Source: Cumulibacter soli
Lineage (GTDB): Bacteria; Actinomycetota; Actinomycetes; Mycobacteriales; Antricoccaceae
DNA length: 64,000 nt
Assembly (NCBI RefSeq): GCF_004382795.1
Contig: NZ_SMSG01000003.1
Location: 62,001-126,000, forward strand
Direction: 5' to 3'
In this document: in pieces, positions 13,740 through 16,936 of the stretch
Layout of the letters: each line of letters starts with the position of its first letter
Position numbering within the stretch: position 1 is the stretch's first letter
The notes under the pieces: generated by a model
The model's database searches: none
Seen by the model: only the letters and a program-made list of their open reading frames with translations
What the model was told of the DNA's origin: nothing
Translations under genes and position numbers: made by a program

Positions 13740-14660
13740 GTGTCCAACAACGATTCCGAGAACGTGCAGACCACCGCGAGCGAAACCGGCACCGACCGGG
13801 TGAAGCGCGGTATGGCGCAGATGCTCAAGGGCGGCGTCATCATGGACGTTGTCACCCCCGAGCAGGCGAAGATCGCCGAGGACGCCGGCGCCGTCGCAGT
13901 AATGGCGCTCGAGCGCGTTCCGGCGGACATTCGCGCGCAGGGCGGAGTGTCACGGATGAGCGACCCGGACATGATCGACGGCATCATCGAGGCCGTCTCG
14001 ATCCCGGTGATGGCGAAGGCGCGCATCGGTCATTTCGTTGAGGCGCAGGTGTTGCAGGCCCTCGGCGTCGATTACATCGATGAGTCGGAGGTCCTCACCC
14101 CAGCCGATTACACCAACCACATCGACAAGTGGCAGTTCACCGTGCCCTTCGTGTGCGGCGCGACCAACCTGGGCGAGGCGCTGCGTCGCATCACCGAGGG
14201 TGCGGCGATGATCCGTTCCAAAGGCGAGGCCGGCACCGGCGATGTGTCGAACGCGACGACCCACATGCGCACGATCAGCGGTGAGATCCGTCGGCTCTCC
14301 TCGATGCGGGAGGACGAACTGTACGTCGCCGCGAAGGAACTCCAAGCGCCGTACGAGTTGGTTGCAGAGGTCGCGCGCGCCGGAAAGCTGCCCGTCGTTA
14401 TGTTCACCGCCGGCGGGATTGCCACCCCCGCGGATGCCGCGATGATGATGCAACTCGGCGCGGACGGCGTGTTCGTCGGTTCGGGCATCTTCAAGTCGGG
14501 CAACCCGGCGCAGCGCGCGGAGGCCATCGTCAAGGCGACGACGTTCTTCGACGATCCGGACACGCTCGCGAACGTGTCCCGCGGGCTCGGGGAAGCGATG
14601 GTCGGCATCAACGTCGAGGAGATCCCGCAGCCGCACCGGCTCGCCGAACGCGGCTGGTAA
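13740..14660 (+). CDS. pdxS: Pyridoxal 5'-phosphate synthase, PdxS subunit
   Basis: PdxS builds pyridoxal phosphate from ribose 5-phosphate, glyceraldehyde 3-phosphate and ammonia supplied by PdxT. The barrel motifs are intact: D36 in [11 protein letters not shown]93 in [10 protein letters not shown] (Schiff-base lysine), and [20 protein letters not shown]. The second lysine region and the phosphate loop [30 protein letters not shown] (described here by its start FTAGGI and end VGSGIF) are present. It has 306 residues, typical. The start is a GTG with GAGGA five bases upstream. The partner pdxT is about 4 kb downstream rather than adjacent. Confidence 0.98.
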
Positions 14661-14690
14661 CCCGGCAGCGGGGACGGCGCTCCCGAGCCG

Positions 14691-14766
14691 TTCTCGGCAT
14701 CCAGAGCGGTTCTCGGCATCCAGAGTGGTTCTCGGCATCCAGAGTGGTTCTCGGCATCCAGAGTGG
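14691..14766. repeat. Four tandem copies of a 19-bp repeat
   Basis: The unit TTCTCGGCATCCAGAGTGG occurs at 14691-14709 (one substitution, C for T), 14710-14728, 14729-14747 and 14748-14766, head to tail without spacers. The last unit forms the left arm of the palindrome at 14755-14788. Found 30 bases after pdxS. Confidence 0.97.
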
Positions 14767-14788
14767 GGAAATTTCCCCACTCTGGATG
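14755..14788. terminator. Perfect 34-base palindrome closing the repeat cluster
   Basis: 14755-14771 and 14772-14788 are exact reverse complements around the centre GGGAAATTTCCC. The left arm comes from the fourth 19-bp repeat. It could be a terminator for pdxS (without a U-tract) or a protein-binding or recombination site; each upstream repeat could also pair with the right arm. Confidence 0.6.
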
Positions 14789-14947
14789 GCTTTCTCCGCC
14801 GTCGCCGGCTTGGCCCACTTTCGGCGGCCGGCGGCTGGGCGCGACCGGTGCGGCCTCGAGCCCAATTCCCACAACGCCGACCGCGAACCATCGAACCCAT
14901 CCGCGCAGGCGGACCGAAGATGCTAACCGGGCAGCGATAGAACTAGT

Positions 14948-16936
14948 GTGGGCCTCGTGTCCTCCCCAGCGCTGACGTCCAGCACGACCCCGACCCACAC
15001 TCGCGCGTTCGCGCTGTTTTCTCGCGTGATCGCCTGCACCATAGCGATGGCGGCCATCATCGTGTTTCCCTCGCCACCGGCGGCACACGCCGAGACAGGC
15101 GATCGGATCACGTCGTACGACATTCAGTACGTCGTGGACGCCGACGGATCGGTGCACGTCACCGAGACCATCGATTACCAATTCGCCAGCTACGGGCGGC
15201 ACGGCATCTTCCGTTGGTTGCAGTATCGCGGCGCCGCTGGCGAAGAGCAGGACCGGCTGTACGACATCAGCGAGTTCTCCGTGAGCAGCCCGACCGGGGC
15301 CTCGACGCGCACGCAACTCGAACAGCAGGTGGGTGAGGACGGCCGCAGCAGGTACGACGTGTATCAGATCGGGTCATCCAATGAGACCGTCGATGAATCC
15401 GAAACCTACGTCCTGACGTACACCATCGACGGCGCATTGAATCCCCAGGACGGCGAGGACACCGAGTTCTACTGGAACGCGACCGGAAACGAGTGGGACG
15501 CCGCGATCGATCAGGTCACCATCAGCGTCGAGGTACCCGACGGGCCTACCAAAGTCGCGTGCTGGGCGGGTCCGGCCGGCACCTCTGACCTCTGTGACAA
15601 CGCGAGTATCGAGGGCGGTGCGGCCATCTTCGAGCACACATCGAGTAGTTACGGCAGCAACTGGGGCGTCACCATCGACGTGGGTATCAATGCCGACGCG
15701 GTCGATGCCGCCCCGGTTTTCGTCGATCGGCCCACCTGGGCGAATCAGAACGGGTTTACGCCATTGCCGATGACGCTCGGCGGCGTTGCGCTGATCGGCC
15801 TGTCAGTATTCGGCTGGCGCCTGCGGTTACGTAGCCGTGATCGTCGGTTCGCGAATGTGCCGCCCGGGGTCATCCCGGACAACCCGGGCACCCGCGTCGC
15901 CGGAATCGGTTCGGGCGCGAAGGTCGTTGCCGACGATCTCTCCATCGAACCGCCGGTCGCGTTCTCGCCGCCACGCGGTATCAGCCCGGCACAGGCGAGT
16001 TATCTACGTCGCCCTGGCCACGACCCCGATCAACTGGCAGCCACAATCTTGGACCTCGCGCACCGTGGAGTGTTGCGCATCGTGGGCGACGAGTACGGCG
16101 ACAGCCGCCGAGTCGAGCTGCAATCGCGCGGTCGGCTGGAGCATCCGCATGAGCAGGCATTCGTGGATAACCTGTTCGCCGACGGTACGTCGGTCTCGCT
16201 GACCAAAGATGTGCCGCCGGGCGTCACACCGCCGCTGCACCGGCCGAACGATCGGTTGCGGGCCGCGCTGGCCAGTGATGTCAAACGACGTAAGTGGTTC
16301 GTCGCAGAACTCGGTGGCGCTCGCAAGAGCCTGCGCGCGCTCGGCTGGCTTCTGGCCATCGGTGGAATCGCTGTACTGCTGTACACGACGTATCAGTTCG
16401 AAACCGAGTCCACCGGCTCCGGGTTCGGCATCTGGGGTCTGGTCGCGCTACTTGCCGGCCCCATCCTGATCTGGATGTCGAAGCGCGGTCGTGGCCAGGG
16501 ACGCACGGCGATGGGGCGTGCGGTCATGGATCAGGTCGATGGTTTCGAGACATATCTGCGGACTGCTGAGGCCGACCAGTTGCGCTTCGAGGAAGGCGAA
16601 GACATCTTCTCGAAGTATCTGCCGTGGGCGGTCGCATTCGACGTCACCGAACGCTGGAGCCGGATCTGCGCTGACCTGAGCGCGCGAGGGCTGATTCCAG
16701 CCCAACCCGTGTGGTATTCGGGCAGATGGGACGGTCTGCATACCTACCTGTGGGTCTCATCCTTCAACCACCACATCAACTCCGCGGCGAGTGCACCCGC
16801 ACCGACGCCGTCCACCCTTGGATCCAGCGGTGGTTTCTCCGGCGGCGGGTTCGGTGGTTTCTCCGGTGGCAGCGGATTCGGCGGTGGCGGTTTCTCCGGC
16901 GGCGGTGGCGGCGGCGGGGGAGGCGGCTCCTGGTGA
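14948..16936 (+). CDS. DUF2207 membrane protein with Gly-rich C-terminus
   Basis: The 662-residue protein has a signal peptide (residues about 18-49, ending PPAAHA-ETG). An extracellular DUF2207 domain follows (ITSYDIQYVVDADGSVHVTE, then YGRHGIFRWL and VLTYTIDGAL). Then come a transmembrane helix (about 272-295), a cytoplasmic region, a pair of hydrophobic helices around LGWLLAIGGIAVLLYTTY and GIWGLVALLAGPILIW, and a further soluble part. The last 35 residues are almost only Gly, Phe and Ser, ending GGGGGSW, typical of this family. Function is unknown. It lies between pdxS and pdxT on the same strand. GTG codons at 14948 and 14957 are both possible starts. Confidence 0.88.
   Translation: MGLVSSPALTSSTTPTHTRAFALFSRVIACTIAMAAIIVFPSPPAAHAETGDRITSYDIQYVVDADGSVHVTETIDYQFASYGRHGIFRWLQYRGAAGEEQDRLYDISEFSVSSPTGASTRTQLEQQVGEDGRSRYDVYQIGSSNETVDESETYVLTYTIDGALNPQDGEDTEFYWNATGNEWDAAIDQVTISVEVPDGPTKVACWAGPAGTSDLCDNASIEGGAAIFEHTSSSYGSNWGVTIDVGINADAVDAAPVFVDRPTWANQNGFTPLPMTLGGVALIGLSVFGWRLRLRSRDRRFANVPPGVIPDNPGTRVAGIGSGAKVVADDLSIEPPVAFSPPRGISPAQASYLRRPGHDPDQLAATILDLAHRGVLRIVGDEYGDSRRVELQSRGRLEHPHEQAFVDNLFADGTSVSLTKDVPPGVTPPLHRPNDRLRAALASDVKRRKWFVAELGGARKSLRALGWLLAIGGIAVLLYTTYQFETESTGSGFGIWGLVALLAGPILIWMSKRGRGQGRTAMGRAVMDQVDGFETYLRTAEADQLRFEEGEDIFSKYLPWAVAFDVTERWSRICADLSARGLIPAQPVWYSGRWDGLHTYLWVSSFNHHINSAASAPAPTPSTLGSSGGFSGGGFGGFSGGSGFGGGGFSGGGGGGGGGGSW

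Follow-up and report, generated by a model that had tools for sequence, protein, structure and literature searches.

A 19-bp module array and palindrome after pdxS in Cumulibacter soli: probable solo element of a dispersed repeat family with copies beside a nuclease gene

To our knowledge, Y1 HUH transposases are the only enzymes established as partners of dispersed bacterial palindromes. In the REP/REPIN and RAYT systems, extragenic palindromes are dispersed through the genome; each of several single-copy enzyme genes has its own family next to it, and solo copies lie elsewhere (PMC3116915, PMC8266576). AbiEi-type antitoxins, the second group relevant here, bind 23-bp inverted repeats (PMC7319586). 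The repeats described below are like REPINs in being palindromic, extragenic and dispersed, with copies adjoining a putative cognate enzyme gene, but they consist of 19-bp modules stacked around a centre, their copy number is in the tens rather than the hundreds, and the enzyme beside them has an AbiEi-like wHTH and a putative PD-(D/E)XK domain in place of Y1 HUH. In genome organisation the system therefore resembles REPIN/RAYT; with an enzyme of another superfamily, however, it is not a member. With the autoregulatory antitoxins AbiEi and Rv2827c it shares a putative N-terminal AbiEi_4-like wHTH and inverted repeats near the gene (PMC7319586), although a C-terminal nuclease replaces the antitoxin domain, and the repeats are two-sided and dispersed at gene ends.

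The locus lies in a 64,000-nucleotide stretch of Cumulibacter soli DNA, which we refer to as the window. The element is preceded by the 3' end of a plus-strand gene at 13740–14660 that we take to be pdxS, following the first-pass annotation, and for which each of the five family genomes has a close homolog; the next gene downstream, called at 14948–16936 on the plus strand, presumably encodes a DUF2207-like membrane protein. Four 19-bp units stand head to tail on the plus strand at 14691–14766, with one mismatch in all: unit 1 (14691–14709), which carries it (GAGCGG), is TTCTCGGCATCCAGAGCGG, and units 2 to 4 (14710–14728, 14729–14747 and 14748–14766) are TTCTCGGCATCCAGAGTGG. The array scores 147 in TRF, and a mismatch search finds the 19-mer four times in the window at up to three mismatches, against 0.01 expected from shuffled sequence. 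A perfect 34-bp inverted repeat, with 17-nt arms, a spacer of zero and the centre GGGGAAATTTCCCC, lies at 14755–14788, and its left arm overlaps unit 4. The units and the palindrome overlapping the last of them are thus as the first-pass annotation had described them, apart from the mismatch in unit 1, but the single right arm it had proposed is not what we observe. The right side (14789–14829) contains further inverted modules on the minus strand, a degenerate one at 14799 and AAAGTGGG at 14818, both in the same 19-bp phase. Upstream of unit 1, weaker plus-strand modules within 14661–14690 keep this phase as well, with AGCGGGG at 14668 and a degenerate CCGAGCCG at 14687, amounting to a partial fifth copy. 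Since weaker in-phase modules are present on both sides, the whole element spans approximately 14661–14829.

One earlier proposal was that any of the four units might pair with the right arm and so provide a slippage-prone termination switch. The predicted pairing of the right arm with unit 4 has an energy of −35.2 kcal/mol with no spacer, and with units 1–3 it is −25.1 kcal/mol or weaker, across 29–67 nt. Alternative hairpins at least 10 kcal/mol weaker and with such large loops should not compete, and a switch acting through them is unlikely on these folding energies. Elsewhere in the window, at 862–911, there is a perfect 23-bp hairpin with a 4-nt loop followed by GGCTTTTCG; from its sequence, which is unrelated to the palindrome family, it is an ordinary strong terminator candidate.

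Searches with the unit itself return little. The exact 19-mer has no second locus in the 3.94-Mb genome and is absent from its relatives in the genus, the palindrome arm was found in neither of the genus's other two species, and a search of 257 Gb of genome contigs with the 17-mer gave 31 matches, which equals chance expectation. Rfam returned only chance-level matches for the element, none reaching the gathering score. A blastn search with the pdxS intergenic region gave no matches in plasmid and phage collections and, in genomes of the order, chiefly GC-rich noise that lay beyond the repeat, but it picked up another palindrome of this genome (G000), at C6:58980–59010. This palindrome and one near C2:37.5k are also preceded by tandem units of period 19, with sequences differing from the unit in the window.

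What recurs is the architecture. The centre GGGGAANNTTCCCC is found repeatedly in the genome and not at all in reversed controls, and GYGGG doublets 19 bp apart give 47 matches compared to 10 in the control. GYGGG modules occur every 19 bp on the two arms around a GGGGAA-NN-TTCCCC centre, towards which they point; in 16 G000 elements aligned at the centre the left arm has them at −8, −27, −46 and −65 and the right arm at −8, −27 and −46, with 23 of 32 distal left-arm sites in one phase of 19. There are 16–17 loci in G000, about 36 in the sister species G001 and few in G002, the third species of the genus, and a covariance model trained on 15 G000 elements detects about 36 elements in G001, none of which was in the training set, at E-values down to 1.5e-9. 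A two-tier module pattern matches 11 times in G000, 35 times in G001 and once in G002, with no matches in controls or in 246 further genomes from the order; the palindrome family is genus-restricted at the sensitivity of this pattern. Each species of the genus has its own element consensus; in G001 it is roughly 66 bp long and almost perfectly palindromic, and each arm has two modules (AAAGCGGGCTTCGNCGGCGAAAGCGGGGAANNTTCCCC and its mirror). The suggestion that the repeats belong to a dispersed family therefore holds for the module architecture and the centre and fails for the 19-mer, and the uniqueness of the unit, previously offered as a sign of chance duplication, is a misleading criterion here because the architecture is dispersed even though the 19-mer is unique.

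The pdxS copy differs from the rest of the family in its additional left-arm modules and, judged by its module pattern, is an unusual member of this genus-specific family, with an expanded left arm. The gap between pdxS and the DUF2207-like gene is 287 bp in G000 and only about 43 bp in G003, which is without the element, so that the pdxS site looks like a lineage-specific gain. Two other G000 loci have distinctive arrangements. The largest array (C2:37506–37740) has at least eight identical TGTCCGGCGTGGGCTTGGG units of period 19 together with degenerate ones, and precedes a GGGGAAAGTTCCCC palindrome; it lies upstream of an infC-like gene and is antisense to its neighbours. A near-identical pair of elements, at C1:576412 and C1:576572, is separated by 160 bp between rhodanese-like and topA-like genes.

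When the immediate neighbours of elements in G000 and G001 are compared, none is orthologous except one, a gene whose product combines an AbiEi-like wHTH with a DUF559/MTES_1575 nuclease domain. The G000 gene (C6:59355–60311) has element copies on both sides, as does its counterpart on contig C27 of G001; in G002, G003 and G004 the homologs also lie between palindromes, with sequences that differ from these elements. We aligned the 450-bp flanks of each gene in the five family genomes (five species in three genera, 3.3–4.7 Mb) and counted scores of at least 17 as matching repeats. Matching flanks are present at 13 of 16 nuclease homologs, two of them marginal (17.0 and 18.5) and barely above the best controls, compared to three of 224 control genes, or 2/223 once one that is itself the nuclease gene is set aside. 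At orthologous nuclease loci the repeats are different, both 3' of asnB in G000 and G001 and at a second locus shared by G000 and G002, indicating that gene and repeat diverge together. The second locus is on contig C4 of G000 and contig C2 of G002 (L251 and L248), and the differing flanking palindromes there offer a natural test case for whether protein and site diverge together. At two G003 loci (L253 and L255), multi-unit direct arrays on one side of the nuclease gene face inverted arrays on the other, with periods of about 22 and 21, compared to 19 in the G000 family; the repeat unit length seems, from these arrays, to be specific to each nuclease.

The protein itself is consistent with a DNA-cutting enzyme. 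E205, D237, E248 and D250, within E...D...ExDG motifs, are invariant in 15 nuclease homologs, and these residues fit a PD-(D/E)XK nuclease. The nuclease profile matches 3hrl (3e-5) and, weakly, 3r3p (E 0.039), which we take to be I-Bth0305I, a Vsr-like homing-type endonuclease. It is like the enzymes of that group in this weak profile similarity and in being encoded by a stand-alone gene beside its presumed target, but unlike them has no intron or intein host that we could see, and its presumed targets are dispersed palindromes. In the domain search the flanked gene product matches AbiEi_4, DUF559 and MTES_1575 and not Y1_Tnp. The C6 nuclease scores below the Pfam gathering cut-offs for AbiEi_4 and DUF559; among 15 homologs, 10 have a DUF559 match at E<0.1 and 11 have AbiEi wHTH similarity. 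A search of the phage collection found no copy of the nuclease.

The link between repeats and nuclease was noticed post hoc, and then held in an independent set of named records from Tsukamurella tyrosinosolvens (six homologs), Arthrobacter (three), Collinsella (one) and Nonomuraea (one). Two-sided matching repeats are present at nine of these 11 homologs, with a repeat sequence private to each gene. Two of 53 Tsukamurella control genes reach 17 and none reaches 20; Arthrobacter and Collinsella are without controls. Pooling the family and replication sets gives p=7e-25, with clear flanking repeats absent from five of the 27 homologs. Three Tsukamurella repeats are dispersed as solo copies (B in six records, D in nine and E in seven) and occur in no other organism of the record collection; repeat C is confined to the record holding its own nuclease gene. 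All inspected solo copies of E (6/6) and D (4/4) adjoin the 3' end of a gene, most of them in convergent gaps, but two of three inspected B copies are in divergent gaps, so the 3'-end preference is strong and not universal. An unflanked nuclease homolog (L262, in the Tsukamurella record NZ_LR134463.1) lies two genes from pdxS, which may be coincidence. The many T. tyrosinosolvens NCTC13231 records listed as plasmids in PLSDB (NZ_LR1344xx) carry the core genes ftsH, pdxS, nrdEF and gatA, and have the appearance of mislabelled pieces of chromosome.

These flanking repeats bear on the proposition that a conventional RAYT or IS200/605 transposase encoded elsewhere spreads REP-like repeats into which the nuclease gene inserted as a passenger. 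Dispersed extragenic palindromes are typical of REP sequences (PMC3116915), but matching, locus-specific repeats accompany the nuclease gene in several genera. We regard this as the least probable of the explanations weighed here.

The positions of the elements relative to genes were determined using gene calls from a codon-usage caller; 52 elements were examined, of which 46 were classifiable, the six inside called ORFs, whose starts are probably over-extended, being excluded from the count. At least one gene ends towards the element in 45 of the 46, and the sole exception seems, on visual inspection, to lie next to a tRNA gene. Convergent gaps are enriched (20/46 compared to 26/150 in the background) and divergent gaps depleted (1/46 compared to 36/150), counts that are not fully independent because a few loci hold two elements. 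Covariation between variable arm positions is mostly absent in G001, where the excess over shuffling is clear only at positions −12 to −14, and we rejected hairpin pairing as the main constraint since most variable positions there do not covary. This sparse covariation argues for conserved recognition modules over pairing alone, a pattern that recent common descent could also produce. Together with the fixed spacing and the conserved modules, it makes the protein-binding cluster envisaged in the first-pass annotation plausible.

An operator role would account for modules conserved as sequence more than as pairing: an AbiEi-like wHTH protein would regulate itself and a regulon through inverted repeats, without any mobility, on the model of AbiEi and Rv2827c, each of which binds its own promoter at multiple inverted repeats (PMC7319586). 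The copies, however, are downstream of genes and seldom in gaps holding only promoters (the single divergent case above), and they flank the nuclease gene on both sides, which makes this explanation improbable.

The same placement invites a simpler interpretation, that these are lineage-specific, ordinary bidirectional intrinsic terminators at gene ends, with the nuclease gene flanked because it too needs terminators and the tandem units arising from neutral slippage. The elements do have GC-rich hairpins right after stop codons and a convergent bias, and the hairpin after the pdxS stop codon is very stable (z-score −5.1), such that a predicted terminator at pdxS is plausible. Intrinsic terminators would not be expected to have a conserved family sequence with 19-bp modules, a weak T-tract or one-sided tandem arrays; a simple terminator scan lists no U-tract site at the pdxS element, where the tail is GCTTTCT. 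A hairpin does not need fixed module spacing, its variable paired positions would be expected to covary, and the gene-specific two-sided repeats at nuclease genes in several genera, unlike controls, would be left unexplained. Terminators alone are thus an unlikely explanation, if a better one than operators.

We favor instead, with a probability of roughly 60%, the interpretation that the pdxS feature is a solo element of a nuclease-repeat system with proposed spreading, incidentally usable as a bidirectional terminator. The wHTH part of the nuclease would recognise the GYGGG modules and the nuclease would cut at or near the elements, with break repair or integration spreading the elements and occasionally the nuclease gene too. 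Elements would settle at sites that tolerate insertion, chiefly those right behind stop codons, and the palindrome, once in place, could terminate transcription in both directions. The additional modules on the left arm at pdxS would reflect tandem expansion of one module, probably through slippage beside the palindrome.

We propose more tentatively, at somewhat less than even odds, that AbiEi-wHTH/DUF559 nucleases and their palindromic module arrays constitute a class of repeat-spreading or homing systems that is widespread in actinobacteria and has no mechanistic relation to HUH transposases, with a private palindrome family at gene ends for each nuclease lineage. Our searches of titles and abstracts (DUF559 with AbiEi, palindromes, mobile elements) found no published account of such a repeat-nuclease pairing. 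If the proposal is correct, the partnership of palindrome and enzyme would have arisen more than once, with a second, unrelated enzyme, and a function would be suggested for a family of uncharacterised DUF559 proteins. It would also provide a tractable pair of protein and DNA site whose specificity has diverged between sister-species orthologs, and the nuclease-repeat system could explain the origin of some of the lineage-specific 'terminator' hairpins of actinobacteria.
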